In this document: in pieces, positions 1 through 21,962 of the stretch
Numbering within the stretch: position 1 is the first letter of the stretch
How the letters are laid out: the number at the start of each line of letters is the position of its first letter
DNA from: a virus
Direction: 5' to 3' (one strand)
Virus record (IMG/VR): IMGVR_UViG_3300031963_001021
Location: 1-21,962 of that record
Length of the DNA: 21,962 bases
Position numbers and translations under genes: made by a program
The notes under the pieces: model-generated
The model's database searches: none
Told to the model about the DNA's origin: nothing
What the model saw: the letters and a program-made list of their open reading frames with translations, nothing else

Positions 1-304
1 CAACTTCTAACAAGTCTTTAGGGCTGATTCCTGTTGCCACCGACACGGTAGCGACTTCATATATAGAACCGTGTCGGTCTATCCATTTTTTGAATCATAA
101 ATTAAATCAACATCTGCATATTGATTCATGTAATCTTCACCAAAGGCTAGATCAGTTTTGCCAGCATCTTTTTCTAATCGCCAAGCAAACCACCACAAAT
201 CTGTTTCCATTTGTAGTTCGCCTAATCTCTTACGCCAACCTGTTTTAAATTCGGCTTCAAAAGCCACCTTTACGGCTGGCGTAAGATCATAGGTAAGTTT
301 TTTA
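1..304. repeat. Left copy of the terminal redundancy (circular-contig overlap)
   Basis: This stretch matches 21659-21962 at every position except 11 (C here, T there), 130 (G/A) and 177 (A/T). It starts inside the frameshifted part of a tail-chaperone gene and ends inside that gene's 5' part. A repeat that cuts a gene at both ends and reads through in frame is what a circular or circularly permuted genome gives when assembled past its own start. The three differences look like population variants: two are synonymous and one is Leu/Ile. A true direct terminal repeat is less likely because replication usually keeps such copies identical. Confidence 0.9.
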
Positions 305-336
305 CCATCTTTTTTAACAATCTCAATTTTGTGCAT
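1..336 (-). CDS. Tail assembly chaperone, frameshifted long form (gpGT-like), cut by left edge
   Basis: A -1 slip at the heptamer at 91-85 lets ribosomes skip the TAG at 79-81 and continue W-I-D-R-H-G-S-I-Y-E and onward to the left edge. The complete extension is seen in the right-hand copy, where it ends at 21576. In total the product would be about 139 residues: 84 from G and 55 from the extension. The extension contains ATGISPKDLLEVDP, a segment of the type seen in actinophage T domains. A single-base difference between the two copies at position 11 is synonymous (TTG/TTA, Leu) in this -1 frame, which supports that the frame is translated. Confidence 0.75.
39..91 (-). promoter_or_regulatory. 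-1 programmed ribosomal frameshift signal (slippery site plus stem-loop)
   Basis: On the minus strand the heptamer A AAA AAT (91-85) lies in the zero frame as X XXY YYZ. It is followed by a six-base spacer (84-79) and then a perfect ten-base inverted repeat: ACCGACACGG at 78-69 pairs with CCGTGTCGGT at 48-39 around a 20-base loop. Slippery site, spacer and stem have the geometry of known -1 frameshift elements. The right-hand copy, 21697-21749, is identical. Confidence 0.85.
79..336 (-). CDS. Tail assembly chaperone, short form (gpG-like)
   Basis: An 85-residue protein directly after the major tail protein gene and, across the contig join, ahead of the tape measure gene. That is the usual place of lambda gpG-type chaperones, which coat the tape measure during tail assembly. 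The sequence has a central FEAEFKTGW segment, a METDLWWFAWR helix and an acidic C-terminal half, resembling actinophage chaperones. The last codons contain the slippery heptamer A AAA AAT at 91-85, and the stop TAG at 81-79 lies six bases after it. Function is inferred from position, size and the frameshift signal. The copy at the right edge has Ile for Leu in the WRLEKD segment. Confidence 0.8.
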   Translation of the reverse strand: MHKIEIVKKDGKKLTYDLTPAVKVAFEAEFKTGWRKRLGELQMETDLWWFAWRLEKDAGKTDLAFGEDYMNQYADVDLIYDSKNG

Positions 337-354
337 TGTCCCACCTTTTCTTTA

Positions 355-762
355 TTACGCGCTTGTTGATTTTGTTAATGCGGTCACAGGAAGCGAAACG
401 CTAACTGAAGCCACTGCATCCACAGCACCGTTTACAGGTGTCCAGGATGTGATAAGGCATGACATTGTGTAACTAGGATTAGTGGCTGTCACTGTTCCTG
501 ATACTGGTATTAACTTGATGTTAAGTTTTGTGCCTAGCGCATCCTCAAATAAACTGTTTACTGATGATGCTGCGAAGTCATTGTAAAGTTCAAGATTTAG
601 CGTAGGTCTTTCAACGCCGCCAATCATGTTCTGTACATTATCATTCATAGCAGTGATATCTACCTGATCAATTTCGCGTGCAAGGCTTACAGTGCTGACA
701 TGATCAGTAATAGTAGTTGTACCTACAATCACGGCAACTTTGTTACCCATAAATATGGCCAT
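355..762 (-). CDS. Major tail protein
   Basis: A 135-residue protein that should form the tail tube as stacked hexamer rings. Its N-terminal half reads as alternating beta strands with the segment REIDQVDITAMND, typical of the short siphophage tail-tube proteins. The C-terminal part is rich in Val, Ser and Thr and also beta-like. A good Shine-Dalgarno (AGAGG) sits a few bases before the ATG. It follows the presumed tail terminator gene and precedes the frameshifting chaperone gene, the standard order. Assignment rests on position plus this pattern. Confidence 0.8.
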   Translation of the reverse strand: MAIFMGNKVAVIVGTTTITDHVSTVSLAREIDQVDITAMNDNVQNMIGGVERPTLNLELYNDFAASSVNSLFEDALGTKLNIKLIPVSGTVTATNPSYTMSCLITSWTPVNGAVDAVASVSVSLPVTALTKSTSA

Positions 763-1925: not shown

Positions 1926-3284
1926 TTAGAAGGATGGCGCGGCCAAACCTGTTCCGTTAATTTGTGCAATTGCACCTGGATAACGCTCGGCGGTGAACGC
2001 TGACATTCCGAATAGAACAATGTTCAACGCAACCTTGCCATTTGGTTCTTCAAATGTTACATAGGTTGGTGCTGCTGCTTCTTCCCATAGGTGTGTTTCG
2101 TTCAAATCAACTACAAAGATTGTATCTTGATTTGTACTGGTACCCTTATTGGTTGCAATGTTGGCATCAACAATAATAGGCAAGCCTAGAATTGAATAAC
2201 CTGAATTGCCATAAGAAGGTGTACCGTTTCCAACACCAATTGCGTTCATTGGGCTATTAGCCTGTGGCACAACTAATGGGCGGTTTGATCCATCTACACC
2301 AGCCAATAGGAATCCTAAACGGCGTGGGTGCATGATGATTGCATTTGGATTAGCAAATACAGTTGATTGAATCTGTTGGATTGCATCTGCAATCTTTGGA
2401 TACAAGCCCGCAACTGTTCCTGTTGTTGCTGTGTAAGTAACAAGGATTCCAGTTGTCATATTTACAAGTCCTAATGGTTGTCCACTTGAACCTGATCCAT
2501 TAAGTAGTGAATTATCCAACTTTGTGTGATAATCACGAATTAAATCACCTAACACAATGTTTTCAATGTTGTATCCGCGTAGAAGTGCTTGCTTTGATAC
2601 TGATTGCTGACCGGCAATTGTATTTACATTTACGGTTAGTGTTGTGTCTGCAATATCTTGCGATACTGCGGCTGTGTTTTGTGATGTTTGATATGCAGTG
2701 ATAGTTCCAGTGTTGATTTTAGAAATAACAACTGACATACCCTGTGTTGGTAGTTGGTGCTTGCGTGCGGCATCCGCAAATGGGCGACCAGCGCGTGCTA
2801 ATGGTGCATATAAATCAACTAGGTATTGTGGCACTACTAAACCTGCAAAGTTGGATGTTCCAACTGCACGCTTTTCAATTGCCATTTCCTGTTGGTGTCT
2901 TGCAATGCGTTGTGCGGCATCTGCATCAGTTTTGAAGTTTGCCTTTAGCGCATCAGTTAAGAAATCATTTCCTGATCTCTCTGAGTAAGTTAATTCCTCG
3001 CGTGTAACGGTAAAGCCACCTGCGCGAACTTCCTTCTTTGGCTCTACATTCGCATCAACCTTAGCGGCTAGATCAGCGGCTTTTTGGTTGCGAATTTCAA
3101 TATCAGACATCTGCTCAATTCTTTCATCCAACTTTTTGATCTCCAGGTTAAGGGCTTCTACATTAGCCAACTCAACCTCTGATAGATCGCGTGCTTCTTC
3201 AGCGGCGCGGTCTAAAGTTGCTTGAATGAGAGAAGTCTTTGCTTCGCGCTTCTCGCGTAGAGAAGCAAGAAAAGTATTAGACAT
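1926..3284 (-). CDS. Major capsid protein, HK97 fold, with N-terminal scaffold domain
   Basis: 452 residues. About the first 100 form a charged coiled coil (REKREAKTSL, LEIKKLDERIEQ), matching the delta/scaffold domain that HK97-type capsid proteins carry and that the prohead protease removes. The mature part begins around residues 105-130. It contains the N-arm and strand pattern seen in the family, including LLNGSGSSGQPLGLVN and a late IVLFGMSAFTAERY segment. The upstream protease and portal confirm the module. The start has a strong Shine-Dalgarno (TAGGAG) five bases before ATG. An 81-base gap precedes it, longer than most here, so it may have its own promoter or mRNA processing signal. 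Confidence 0.93.
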   Translation of the reverse strand: MSNTFLASLREKREAKTSLIQATLDRAAEEARDLSEVELANVEALNLEIKKLDERIEQMSDIEIRNQKAADLAAKVDANVEPKKEVRAGGFTVTREELTYSERSGNDFLTDALKANFKTDADAAQRIARHQQEMAIEKRAVGTSNFAGLVVPQYLVDLYAPLARAGRPFADAARKHQLPTQGMSVVISKINTGTITAYQTSQNTAAVSQDIADTTLTVNVNTIAGQQSVSKQALLRGYNIENIVLGDLIRDYHTKLDNSLLNGSGSSGQPLGLVNMTTGILVTYTATTGTVAGLYPKIADAIQQIQSTVFANPNAIIMHPRRLGFLLAGVDGSNRPLVVPQANSPMNAIGVGNGTPSYGNSGYSILGLPIIVDANIATNKGTSTNQDTIFVVDLNETHLWEEAAAPTYVTFEEPNGKVALNIVLFGMSAFTAERYPGAIAQINGTGLAAPSF

Positions 3285-17888: not shown

Positions 17889-19139
17889 CTAATAGGCCAA
17901 AGAATCTTCATCTAAAATTCCATCCACATCTGATGATAGCAAAAAACCGGATGCAAAGGGTTGGGCGCAAGTAAATGTAACCAAAAAAGATTTTGGCGTT
18001 ATTTGATAGGTAAGGCCGGCAATAACGCTATCAGTAACCACATTGCCAGCCGGTAGGGTTTGAGTAACCTGGATTGGATCAAACATGTCTAAATTTAAAG
18101 CGGCTACAACCCGATCAGGATCATCCTCGCCATAGGCATCAACTGTTAATGAGTTTAACTGGATATTTACGCCTTGCTCTTTGCGTGAAGCAATGATCAT
18201 TAAAGCCTGGTTTAACGCATCTGCATCTGTTTGCATGATGCCACTTCTTACACGGCTGTGTTGGAAATAATCCTCAATACTTGCTGTGTCACTGGCTGTT
18301 TGAGCAATACCACCGGTTCTAGTTACTGTCACTTTATTAATCATTTGATAATCTGAAATATCAAATTCAACTGCCTGATAAGTAACATCACCTGATCCTG
18401 GCACATCACTAAAATTTGTTAATGTGCCACCTGATGCTGTGATGATGTCTGTGCGTGACATAAATTTTGCATATCCGCGCTCATCCATATAAAAAGCACC
18501 CAGGTCTGTGGCCTCTACAACCTGGCAGGCAGATAATAGTGATCGTGATGTGCCATCATCTGCCTGTACAGTTGTGGTTGCGGTTGTAGAAATATCTCGC
18601 ATACCACCTGGCCATTCACCGGCATCCAACAAACTTGTAATTCTGTCCGCTGTTGTTTGTCCGGCTATGCCGCCTGTAACTGATGTAATGGTGGTTAAAT
18701 TTAATAACTGAAATCCATCTACGCATGACAATGTTACATAGGCTGGATCAAATCCAGTTGGGCTTTGATAATTCCATTCCTGTACATAAAATGATCCTAA
18801 ATTGTATGAATTGCCGGCAAACTCAGCGGTAAAGCGAATCTTGCGCATAGGTTTGATCTTGCCATATAAACTGGATGAAGTATTGGCTGGATTAAATTCA
18901 CCTGTTTCATCAACAAAGATAATTCTTGCAGTGCCGCCAGTAAATGAATCTGATGATCTGTTAAATGCTCTGCGTATATAAGTTTGTGTTACATAAGGCG
19001 TAATATCTATTACATCCGCTGCGGCTGTACCTAATACAGAATAATCTAATGGTGTTGCGCTATTGTCCAAAATTAAAGCAGGATCAAATGATGCGCCATT
19101 AGAAAAATCAATTTCAACCTTCAATACTGCGGCTGGCAT
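17889..19139 (-). CDS. Minor tail (tail-tip) protein, Dit/Tal-like
   Basis: 416 residues directly after the tape measure gene, where siphophages encode distal-tail and tail-tip proteins. N-terminal part: VIDITPYVTQTYIRRAFNRS, DETGEFNP, LYGKIKPMRKIRFTA, FYVQEWNY and VTLSCVDGFQLLN. This is the usual actinophage minor-tail opening. The later half has RTGGIAQTASDTASIED and ends IAGLTYQITPKSFLVTFTCA. Most siphophages use two or more proteins here; this phage seems to make do with one. The start overlaps the tape measure stop. Confidence 0.82.
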   Translation of the reverse strand: MPAAVLKVEIDFSNGASFDPALILDNSATPLDYSVLGTAAADVIDITPYVTQTYIRRAFNRSSDSFTGGTARIIFVDETGEFNPANTSSSLYGKIKPMRKIRFTAEFAGNSYNLGSFYVQEWNYQSPTGFDPAYVTLSCVDGFQLLNLTTITSVTGGIAGQTTADRITSLLDAGEWPGGMRDISTTATTTVQADDGTSRSLLSACQVVEATDLGAFYMDERGYAKFMSRTDIITASGGTLTNFSDVPGSGDVTYQAVEFDISDYQMINKVTVTRTGGIAQTASDTASIEDYFQHSRVRSGIMQTDADALNQALMIIASRKEQGVNIQLNSLTVDAYGEDDPDRVVAALNLDMFDPIQVTQTLPAGNVVTDSVIAGLTYQITPKSFLVTFTCAQPFASGFLLSSDVDGILDEDSLAY

Positions 19140-20899
19140 TATCTACCCAAATTAGTTAATTGAGTTACTGCACCTGCTCGGTTTAGGTTATACAAAGCAT
19201 CCTGGATTACTGATTGTAATTCGCCTTCTGAGATTACTGATCCGGCTACATTTACATTTACAGTAGTGCCAAAACCGCCCATGCGATCTAATGGCACTAC
19301 CGCTTCTGCGCCCGCTTCACCAATCATTGCAATGGTTGGCTGATTTACAATACCACCATCTGCCATTCTCGGTAGATTGCCAAAATCCATATAAGACATT
19401 TTGGTTGGTGTAATACCTTCTGCATAGGCAGGTTTACCAGTACCAATTGGCACGGTGTAATCAATATTGCCCAAAATTTTAGGTGCTACACCGGTTTGAC
19501 CACCCAAAGGTATAGAAGCAATCTGTTGTAACAATGCCAACATCTTACGCAATTCTTCATTTGCGGCAAAAAGTTTTTGTAAATAAAGCACTACCTCAGT
19601 TGTGCTAATACCCCACTTTTTAGCCAACATATCAATTTCTTCTGTTGAAATAACGCCATCTTCAATTACCTTTAATACATCAGCATATCTTTCGGCTTCA
19701 TTTACGGCGGCGGCTGTGCCATCTGCCAACTTCTGCAAAATCTTAACTCTGATTTCATCCTCAGCATTTAATTTGCGGCTTAAAGCGGCTTGTAGATTAA
19801 TGCGATCAATATCAAATATTGCTTGTAATTCTGATCTCTTTTTATCTAATAATTGTTGCGCTACCTTTTCTTTAGTTGTTAATTTTTCGGTAGCCAAAAT
19901 TTTCTTTTGAATATTAGCAATCATCTCATCAAAGGTAAGAATTTTCTTAGTGGTTTGAACTCTATCTTCTCTTTGATTTGCGCTAATTTTTTCTAGGCTA
20001 ATTGCTTTAATGCCAGCATTTTCTATTTTTTGTAAAGTTCCGTATTCGCCAACAAATCCTTCTATTGCAACTTTGGCTAATTCGCCAAAAATGCCTAAAC
20101 CTTCTTTTTTTGTAACGGCAGCAACACCTATTAATATATTGCTAAATTGATTGGCAGTTTTTTCAAGATCAGTTCCTAAATTTTGAATTAAAGGCCGACC
20201 TTCCGAAATAATTGCATAAGCAGTTAGCATGCCCTGGCCTAATGTTTCAGTGGCTTCTCCTGCACTAATTCTAAATGCTTTAATTTGTCCATCTAAAGTT
20301 AATGTGGCTGCTTCGGCTGATCCAGTATATTTTTGTAAGGTTTGCATTGTTTTTGCAAAGCCCATTGTTTTGGCTTCTGCGGCAGTAAAGCCTACGCCTA
20401 ATGCACCGATAGATTTATAGTTGCCAATAGCGGCTTTAGTAATGGCATCTAATGTTGTGCTTAAATCTTTACCTGTACCTGCACTAACATCTAAAGCCAG
20501 GCGTAATAAACCCTGTGATGCTTCCAAATCACCTGTTTGTGCTATCAATTGCTGCAATGCTGGAATTAATTGATTTTCACTCACATTTGTAGCAGATTGC
20601 AAACCTTCTATAAAAGCACCAACCTCTGATGCCATGCCACCGCGACCTATGCTATTCAAAGTCAATTTTAATGATTTATCTAATTGTTCTTGCGCCAAAG
20701 CCGCTGATAATGATCTTTTGGCTAGTAATGCCATACTTGCCGCTGTAGCAATACCGCCAGCAGCCAAACCTGCACGCAATCTAAATGCTGATGATGCTAC
20801 AAACTTATCAAAACCTTTTAACTCTTTTGTGGCACGCTCTAAACCTTTTTTATCAAACTTGGTAAGAAAGTTAATTGCAACATATTGACTCAGTGCCAT
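19139..20899 (-). CDS. Tape measure protein
   Basis: 586 residues, the longest gene, in the standard place after the chaperone and gp10-like genes. It begins VAINFLTKFDKKGLERATKE, the usual first helix. Long Ala/Lys/Glu-rich helices follow, with hydrophobic stretches near the start (AGGIATAASMALLAKRS). The C-terminal part has NQPTIAMIGEAGAEAVVPLD, a widely conserved tape-measure motif. At the usual 1.5 angstrom per residue this predicts a tail of roughly 90 nm, short but normal for a small phage. No lysozyme or peptidase domain is seen. Confidence 0.92.
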   Translation of the reverse strand: MALSQYVAINFLTKFDKKGLERATKELKGFDKFVASSAFRLRAGLAAGGIATAASMALLAKRSLSAALAQEQLDKSLKLTLNSIGRGGMASEVGAFIEGLQSATNVSENQLIPALQQLIAQTGDLEASQGLLRLALDVSAGTGKDLSTTLDAITKAAIGNYKSIGALGVGFTAAEAKTMGFAKTMQTLQKYTGSAEAATLTLDGQIKAFRISAGEATETLGQGMLTAYAIISEGRPLIQNLGTDLEKTANQFSNILIGVAAVTKKEGLGIFGELAKVAIEGFVGEYGTLQKIENAGIKAISLEKISANQREDRVQTTKKILTFDEMIANIQKKILATEKLTTKEKVAQQLLDKKRSELQAIFDIDRINLQAALSRKLNAEDEIRVKILQKLADGTAAAVNEAERYADVLKVIEDGVISTEEIDMLAKKWGISTTEVVLYLQKLFAANEELRKMLALLQQIASIPLGGQTGVAPKILGNIDYTVPIGTGKPAYAEGITPTKMSYMDFGNLPRMADGGIVNQPTIAMIGEAGAEAVVPLDRMGGFGTTVNVNVAGSVISEGELQSVIQDALYNLNRAGAVTQLTNLGR

Positions 20900-20901
20900 A
20901 A

Positions 20902-21576
20902 TTAACCTCTAAATTCTTTGCCTAGATATTTTTTAAGTACGCCGTATAGATTATCATTTACTTGGCCACCTAATTGTTGTGATGCCCTATAAATCAATCT
21001 TTTTTCTTTGTAAGCACCACTGTTAGCAGTGCCTTGCAATTTGCCAATAAATGATTCACTCGCATTTTGGTTACGGCTAACACGCCTAGTTCTACTTCTT
21101 GATTTAGATGAACCAAAACCTGCCAACTCATAAATTATACCTGGTACAGATTTATTTATTACGGCTATTGCGGTTACACCAAATGTAACGCCTTTAATTC
21201 TTTGTACTTTACTTTTAGCCGTGCTTACTCTTATGCCGCGTATAACTTCTGTTTGTGACCATTTCCAACGGCTTCTTTGATTCTCGCCAATTGTTCTACC
21301 TCGGTGAACATTGTCATTAGCCCAACCCCATTGTGGTGGGTAATTTGGTTCAACATCACGCCATCCCGGAAACGGTGAATGTGGTACAAAACTTTGTGCT
21401 AATTTGGCAACAGGCTTAACAGCCTTGCTTAATTCCCTTCTAAATTCTTTTTGTAAATCAGGATCTACCTTTTTCATTTTTTCAAGAAGTTCAGTTAAAT
21501 TTTCAACATAGATTGATGGCACTACTGCCAATGATCTAGTACGGCCAGGAAGTTCCGCATATCTTGGTTTAATCAT
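20902..21576 (-). CDS. HK97 gp10-like virion protein
   Basis: 224 residues. The stretch DLQKEFRRELSKAVKPVAKL, then FVPHSPFPGW, resembles the HK97 gp10-like tail-completion family, followed by a basic Arg/Ser-rich part (SKSRSRTRRVSRNQN). In most phages such a gene lies between connector and tail terminator. Here it is between the tail chaperone and the tape measure, and it is larger than the usual 120-150 residues. The ATG overlaps the chaperone stop (TAATG). Function is assumed from the family resemblance, which is moderate. Confidence 0.6.
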   Translation of the reverse strand: MIKPRYAELPGRTRSLAVVPSIYVENLTELLEKMKKVDPDLQKEFRRELSKAVKPVAKLAQSFVPHSPFPGWRDVEPNYPPQWGWANDNVHRGRTIGENQRSRWKWSQTEVIRGIRVSTAKSKVQRIKGVTFGVTAIAVINKSVPGIIYELAGFGSSKSRSRTRRVSRNQNASESFIGKLQGTANSGAYKEKRLIYRASQQLGGQVNDNLYGVLKKYLGKEFRG

Positions 21577-21962
21577 TACTTCCGCCTAACTGTTGCCTTC
21601 TTGTTGTTGTAATAGCGTTCTTGCAAGATGGCTTTAATGGCTGAATAAATCGCTGGATCAACTTCTAATAAGTCTTTAGGGCTGATTCCTGTTGCCACCG
21701 ACACGGTAGCGACTTCATATATAGAACCGTGTCGGTCTATCCATTTTTTGAATCATAAATTAAATCAACATCTGCATATTGATTCATATAATCTTCACCA
21801 AAGGCTAGATCAGTTTTGCCAGCATCTTTTTCTATTCGCCAAGCAAACCACCACAAATCTGTTTCCATTTGTAGTTCGCCTAATCTCTTACGCCAACCTG
21901 TTTTAAATTCGGCTTCAAAAGCCACCTTTACGGCTGGCGTAAGATCATAGGTAAGTTTTTTA
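21576..21962 (-). CDS. Tail assembly chaperone GT, second copy, cut at its 5' end by the right edge
   Basis: This copy contains the complete frameshift extension: after the slip at 21749-21743 the reading frame runs 55 codons to TAA at 21578-21576, directly against the next gene's ATG. The short form would stop at TAG 21739-21737. The start codon lies beyond the right edge; the same gene's 5' end is seen in full at 336. The extension contains TVSVATGISPKDLLEVDP and ends YYNNKKATVRRK. It is the same gene as at 1-336, repeated because the contig is circular. Confidence 0.78.
21659..21962. repeat. Right copy of the terminal redundancy (circular-contig overlap)
   Basis: Matches 1-304 with three substitutions (21669, 21788 and 21835). 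It shows that the genome closes at about 21,658 bp and that the reads came from a mixed population. Confidence 0.9.
21697..21749 (-). promoter_or_regulatory. -1 frameshift signal, second copy
   Basis: Identical to the left copy: heptamer A AAA AAT at 21749-21743, spacer 21742-21737, ten-base stem arms at 21736-21727 and 21706-21697. None of the three differences between the two repeat copies falls inside the element. Confidence 0.85.

Follow-up and report, generated by a model that had tools for sequence, protein, structure and literature searches.

We find that this freshwater phage very probably carries a programmed -1 ribosomal frameshift signal in a tail assembly chaperone gene of the lambda G/GT type. 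The window, the whole stretch of DNA analyzed here, is IMG/VR record IMGVR_UViG_3300031963_001021 with a length of 21,962 bases. On its minus strand the 85-codon gene G ends in ...TCA AAA AAT GGA TAG, and there we located every part of the element described in the original prediction: a slippery heptamer, a 6-base spacer holding the stop codon, and a 10-base stem. The stem is a perfect 10-bp pairing of ACCGACACGG with CCGTGTCGGT that encloses a 20-nt loop and has its base 6 nt past the heptamer. As had been predicted, a -1 shift opens 55 further codons that reach the next gene, the stop codon TAA of this extension (T) overlapping the following ATG by one base (TAATG). The features of the region are as follows.

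355 to 762, minus strand: major tail protein, directly preceding G (matches the PHROG major tail protein family, E 9.9e-14).
79 to 336, minus strand: gene G with 85 codons, complete in this copy at the start of the contig, a probable chaperone by gene order (homologues 26-37% identical in phiPsal1 and related contigs).
21737 to 21962, minus strand: 3' part of gene G, present a second time at the end of the contig (assembly overlap).
21743 to 21749 (second copy 85 to 91), minus strand: slippery heptamer A_AAA_AAT in the zero frame (read from the sequence; in place in 150 of 150 untruncated relatives).
21737 to 21742 (second copy 79 to 84), minus strand: 6-nt spacer GGATAG, which includes the zero-frame stop TAG at 21739-21737 (this TAG is present in all relatives).
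21727 to 21736 (second copy 69 to 78), minus strand: 5' arm of the stem, ACCGACACGG (637 of 640 cells paired over 64 elements).
21697 to 21706 (second copy 39 to 48), minus strand: 3' arm of the stem, CCGTGTCGGT (same pairing statistics).
21576 to 21743, minus strand: T extension in the -1 frame, 55 codons and TAA (third bases vary in the -1 frame, 38 of 52; homologous to T of phiPsal1).
20902 to 21576, minus strand: next gene, 224 aa, its ATG overlapping the T stop (weak match to phiPsal1 gp17).
19139 to 20899, minus strand: tape measure protein (PHROG tail length tape measure, E 3.8e-9).

The element had been reported as seen twice, but both sightings belong to one locus read at the two ends of the contig. 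Positions 1-304 repeat 21659-21962 with 3 mismatches, and the related contigs L004 and L005 run across the end join of the window; on these grounds we rejected two independent copies (21697-21749 and a twin at 39-91). The mismatches lie at 11/21669, 130/21788, and 177/21835; two are synonymous and one exchanges Leu and Ile in G. Given the imperfect overlap, the contig seems to combine two strain variants that differ slightly. The variant at 21669, previously put forward as a sign of selection, is indeed synonymous in the -1 frame only (TTA/TTG, Leu; the residue changes in both other frames), and taken alone it is weak evidence.

A_AAA_AAT is an in-frame heptamer of the X_XXY_YYZ type, and the 10-bp stem follows it after 6 nt, within the 5-9 nt spacing of structures downstream of frameshift sites (PMC5009743). 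Most ribosomes would read G and terminate at the spacer TAG, and the hairpin would pause some of them with the AAA and AAT tRNAs on the heptamer. The paused tRNAs would re-pair one base back as AAA AAA, and the shifted ribosomes would go on with TGG ATA GAC, adding a T domain of 55 residues. We infer that such shifting occurs, its rate, and tandem slippage as the step involved.

The single sequence is suggestive of this reading, and its stem alone proves nothing, for heptamer and stem could be by-products of chance or of coding that have no role in decoding. About 200 heptamers of the X_XXY_YYZ type are expected in a genome of such make-up; among 40 Markov-simulated genomes, the best stem near any such heptamer measured 11 bp in one and 10 bp in two more, and the z-score of an 80-nt fold is a modest -2.66. 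Because a stem of this kind is thus within the reach of chance, the case rests on comparison with relatives, and the comparative evidence settles it. We also considered a pseudoknot formed by the loop and downstream sequence, but the candidates comprise only 4-5 bp of near-invariant letters and are without support. Neither an Rfam scan nor a tRNA scan returned a match.

We gathered relatives by comparing proteins with G and with the major tail protein; the heptamer was not used in their selection. It stands in register, 10 nt before the stop, in 150 of 150 related loci not truncated within G (several loci share a contig; distinct sequence contexts number at most 87), and exactly 55 further -1 codons are present in 147 of 147 loci with a complete T. 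An alignment of related contigs had been proposed as a check, and in it slippery site, spacer stop, open -1 frame, and stem are all conserved. Loss of the heptamer or the stem, or stops in the -1 frame, had been named as findings that would speak against the prediction; we encountered them in no untruncated relative.

The pattern of variation follows the two reading frames. Among 94 distinct GT sequences, zero-frame third bases are variable at 64 of 81 positions in G, and after the heptamer it is the -1-frame third bases that vary, at 38 of 52 positions compared with 13 of 51 and 9 of 51 at the other codon positions. Variability thus switches from the zero frame to the -1 frame at the heptamer, which is itself invariant down to its third bases. 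This switch and the 55 codons found in all complete relatives mark the -1 frame as a selected coding frame. The spacer is constrained as well: its Ile codon is always ATA, a codon used for 21% of Ile residues genome-wide; ATA and the following G supply the TAG stop. In the L221 group a Leu codon takes this place, CTA or TTA, either of which again yields TAG, and TAG is also retained where GGA becomes GGC or GGT. Comparison of the sequences thereby establishes the layout, its conservation, and selection for coding in the -1 frame.

Two other routes to expression of T have to be weighed against these data. If T were translated by re-initiation after the G stop, G and T would be separate proteins and no fusion would form. 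T does begin near the G stop, and phages, as is generally known, often re-initiate translation where genes overlap. There is, however, no ATG near the beginning of T, its first GTG falls within the 3' stem arm, and the invariance of the heptamer, third bases included, would still need explaining, so that we regard this route as very improbable. The other route is transcriptional slippage, in which RNA polymerase would add one A in the A6 run and some mRNAs would encode the fusion directly. The product would be nearly the same (junction SKKW versus SKNW), in distant relatives the run is 7 or 8 A long, and shorter runs may also permit slippage in some organisms (PMC1088944). In every close relative, however, the run consists of just six A, while selection against runs prone to slippage usually becomes apparent at nine (PMC1088944), which makes transcriptional slippage unlikely. 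Nor would it need a conserved, covarying hairpin at the spacing of ribosomal frameshift sites, and we give it little credence next to ribosomal frameshifting.

The stem provides a second line of evidence. Across 64 distinct elements, pairing holds in 637 of 640 cells, whereas 2000 column-preserving shuffles averaged 607 paired cells and never exceeded 621. In a set of 26 distinct rows the paired share is 99.2%, and it falls to 29-50% when positions are matched with a shifted partner. Pair 5 takes four forms, A-U, G-U, C-G, and U-G. A tree computed from the flanks, with the element left out, shows both sides of pair 5 changing together in seven of seven supported independent comparisons (the average over random pairings is 6.9, with no comparison running the opposite way, and the sign test has a median p of 0.016), double changes being confined to this one of the ten pairs; recombination that moves the hairpin as one piece between lineages could inflate the count of independent events. 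The ten pairs of the original prediction are the correct ones. RNAfold adds an 11th (T-A), which is present in the window only and is not conserved in relatives.

Third bases of the -1 frame within the stem are fixed where pairing demands it (GAC, CAC, GTG, TCG/GCG), and the first one outside the stem varies freely (GTG/GTT/GTA). The change at pair 5 replaces Ser by Ala in T. Judged from these sequences, the hairpin is itself under selection: maintaining the RNA pairing at pair 5 costs a residue change in T, and the hairpin constrains the T protein sequence.

The layout extends to phiPsal1 (MG835450), a contig obtained from cultured Pontimonas salivibrio, a member of the Microbacteriaceae (PMC6106888); we reached it via its major tail (tail tube) protein. 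Its homologue of G is gp16 (35% identity over 69 aa), which ends in TCA AAA AAA TAA, that is, in A_AAA_AAA followed by a stop, with a hairpin predicted downstream. The -1 frame continues as a homologue of T (ISPRELMELDP versus ISPKDLLEVDP). This T (L224:6677-6840) is without annotation in the record, which leaves a gap of 100 bases behind gp16 and gives gp17 a start overlapping the -1-frame T region. phiPsal1 thus shares homologous G and T and the gene order with the window, and differs in its longer A run, its different hairpin, and the missing annotation of T. Related contigs have the same layout, one of them 89% and three ∼62% identical in G. Arthrobacter phage Swenson (MF140429, L378:2357-2818) has a weakly similar G, annotated as hypothetical, before the tape measure gene, and a T-like frame in -1 (VELALATNIAPSVWAAESTEVIATALTILEERK); a search of its G/T region for an X_XXY_YYZ heptamer found none.

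An origin of stem and heptamer by chance or as by-products of coding would accommodate the simulated genomes and the modest fold z-score described above. It is at odds with the compensatory changes in the stem, the fixed third bases within it, the switch in the frame of variation at the heptamer, and the recurrence of the layout in phiPsal1, and its probability is in our estimate negligible. The reading of the element as a G/GT-type -1 frameshift signal, by contrast, gains support from relatives that keep heptamer, stop, frame, and covarying stem, and from phiPsal1.

Gene order places G where a G/GT chaperone would be sought. Read along the minus strand, the major tail protein is followed by G, T, the 224-aa gene, and the tape measure, so that G and T lie between the major tail protein and the tape measure, with T in the -1 frame, as in lambda, and one gene separates T from the tape measure. 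No family matches the 224-aa gene (20902-21576) convincingly; its positional counterpart in phiPsal1, gp17, shows weak similarity to it (E 0.005). Searches of G against PHROGs and Pfam yielded no match to a tail-chaperone family, and a model of G of moderate confidence (pLDDT 76) gave no fold match among solved structures in the PDB. Significant matches of G in the viral library are phage proteins without a named function. We found no GT in bacterial and archaeal genomes, and none in cultured phages when these were searched directly; a further scan with a mixed alignment returned mostly the same contigs. The earlier description of G as a tail chaperone gene thus agrees with gene order and frameshift layout, which together identify G as a probable tail assembly chaperone, but finds no counterpart in a match to a named family.

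Among annotated phages, the major capsid protein (window positions 1926-3284) matches mycobacteriophage capsids only, at ∼34-37% identity, and those similar to the tail protein infect Rhodococcus and Pontimonas; together the two proteins point to an actinobacterial host.

Frameshifting of the lambda G/GT type is widely conserved among long-tailed phages (PMC5009743), and the lambda case has been characterized in detail (Levin 1993; Xu 2004, 2013, as described in PMC5009743). The system described here resembles lambda in that a short gene lies between those for the major tail protein and the tape measure, and a -1 slip at a heptamer near its 3' end adds a short T domain. It differs in the extra gene before the tape measure, in the strong covarying hairpin that follows the heptamer, and in that we detect no sequence homology of G to named chaperone families. 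The heptamer is also different, A_AAA_AAT rather than the G_GGA_AAG of lambda. In its heptamer it can be likened to the g-t site of the haloarchaeal virus HCTV-2, A_AAA_AAC, which is likewise of the A_AAA_AAY kind and ends in an Asn codon (PMC5009743), but the host there is archaeal and the codon is AAC, not AAT. The pairs 17.5/17.5* of SPP1 and gpG/gpT of TP901-1 are G/GT pairs of Gram-positive siphophages with other -1 heptamers, TTTTTTC and GGGAAAG, and the portions of the sources consulted describe no conserved stem for them (PMC6316719, PMC4493119).

A_AAA_AAT, ending in the Asn codon AAT, is a slippery site unfavored in E. coli. We tentatively suggest that in this freshwater lineage of probable actinobacteriophages frameshifting might depend on a strong hairpin because the heptamer is a poor slippery site for bacterial ribosomes, and that the hairpin might in turn drive the evolution of T, with Ser/Ala switching at pair 5; we consider this possible rather than probable. 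By analogy with lambda, many copies of G and few of GT would coat the tape measure protein, and the T part would recruit the major tail protein; we infer these binding roles of G and T from that likeness. The principle is well known. The analysis points to a probable chaperone in a widespread group of freshwater phages whose G matches no named family, and the comparative evidence for a tail-chaperone frameshift site followed by a stimulatory hairpin is unusually clean, with compensatory changes in the stem, a stop kept in the spacer, and a switch in the frame of variation. This would aid the annotation of related genomes, such as phiPsal1, in which T is missed.
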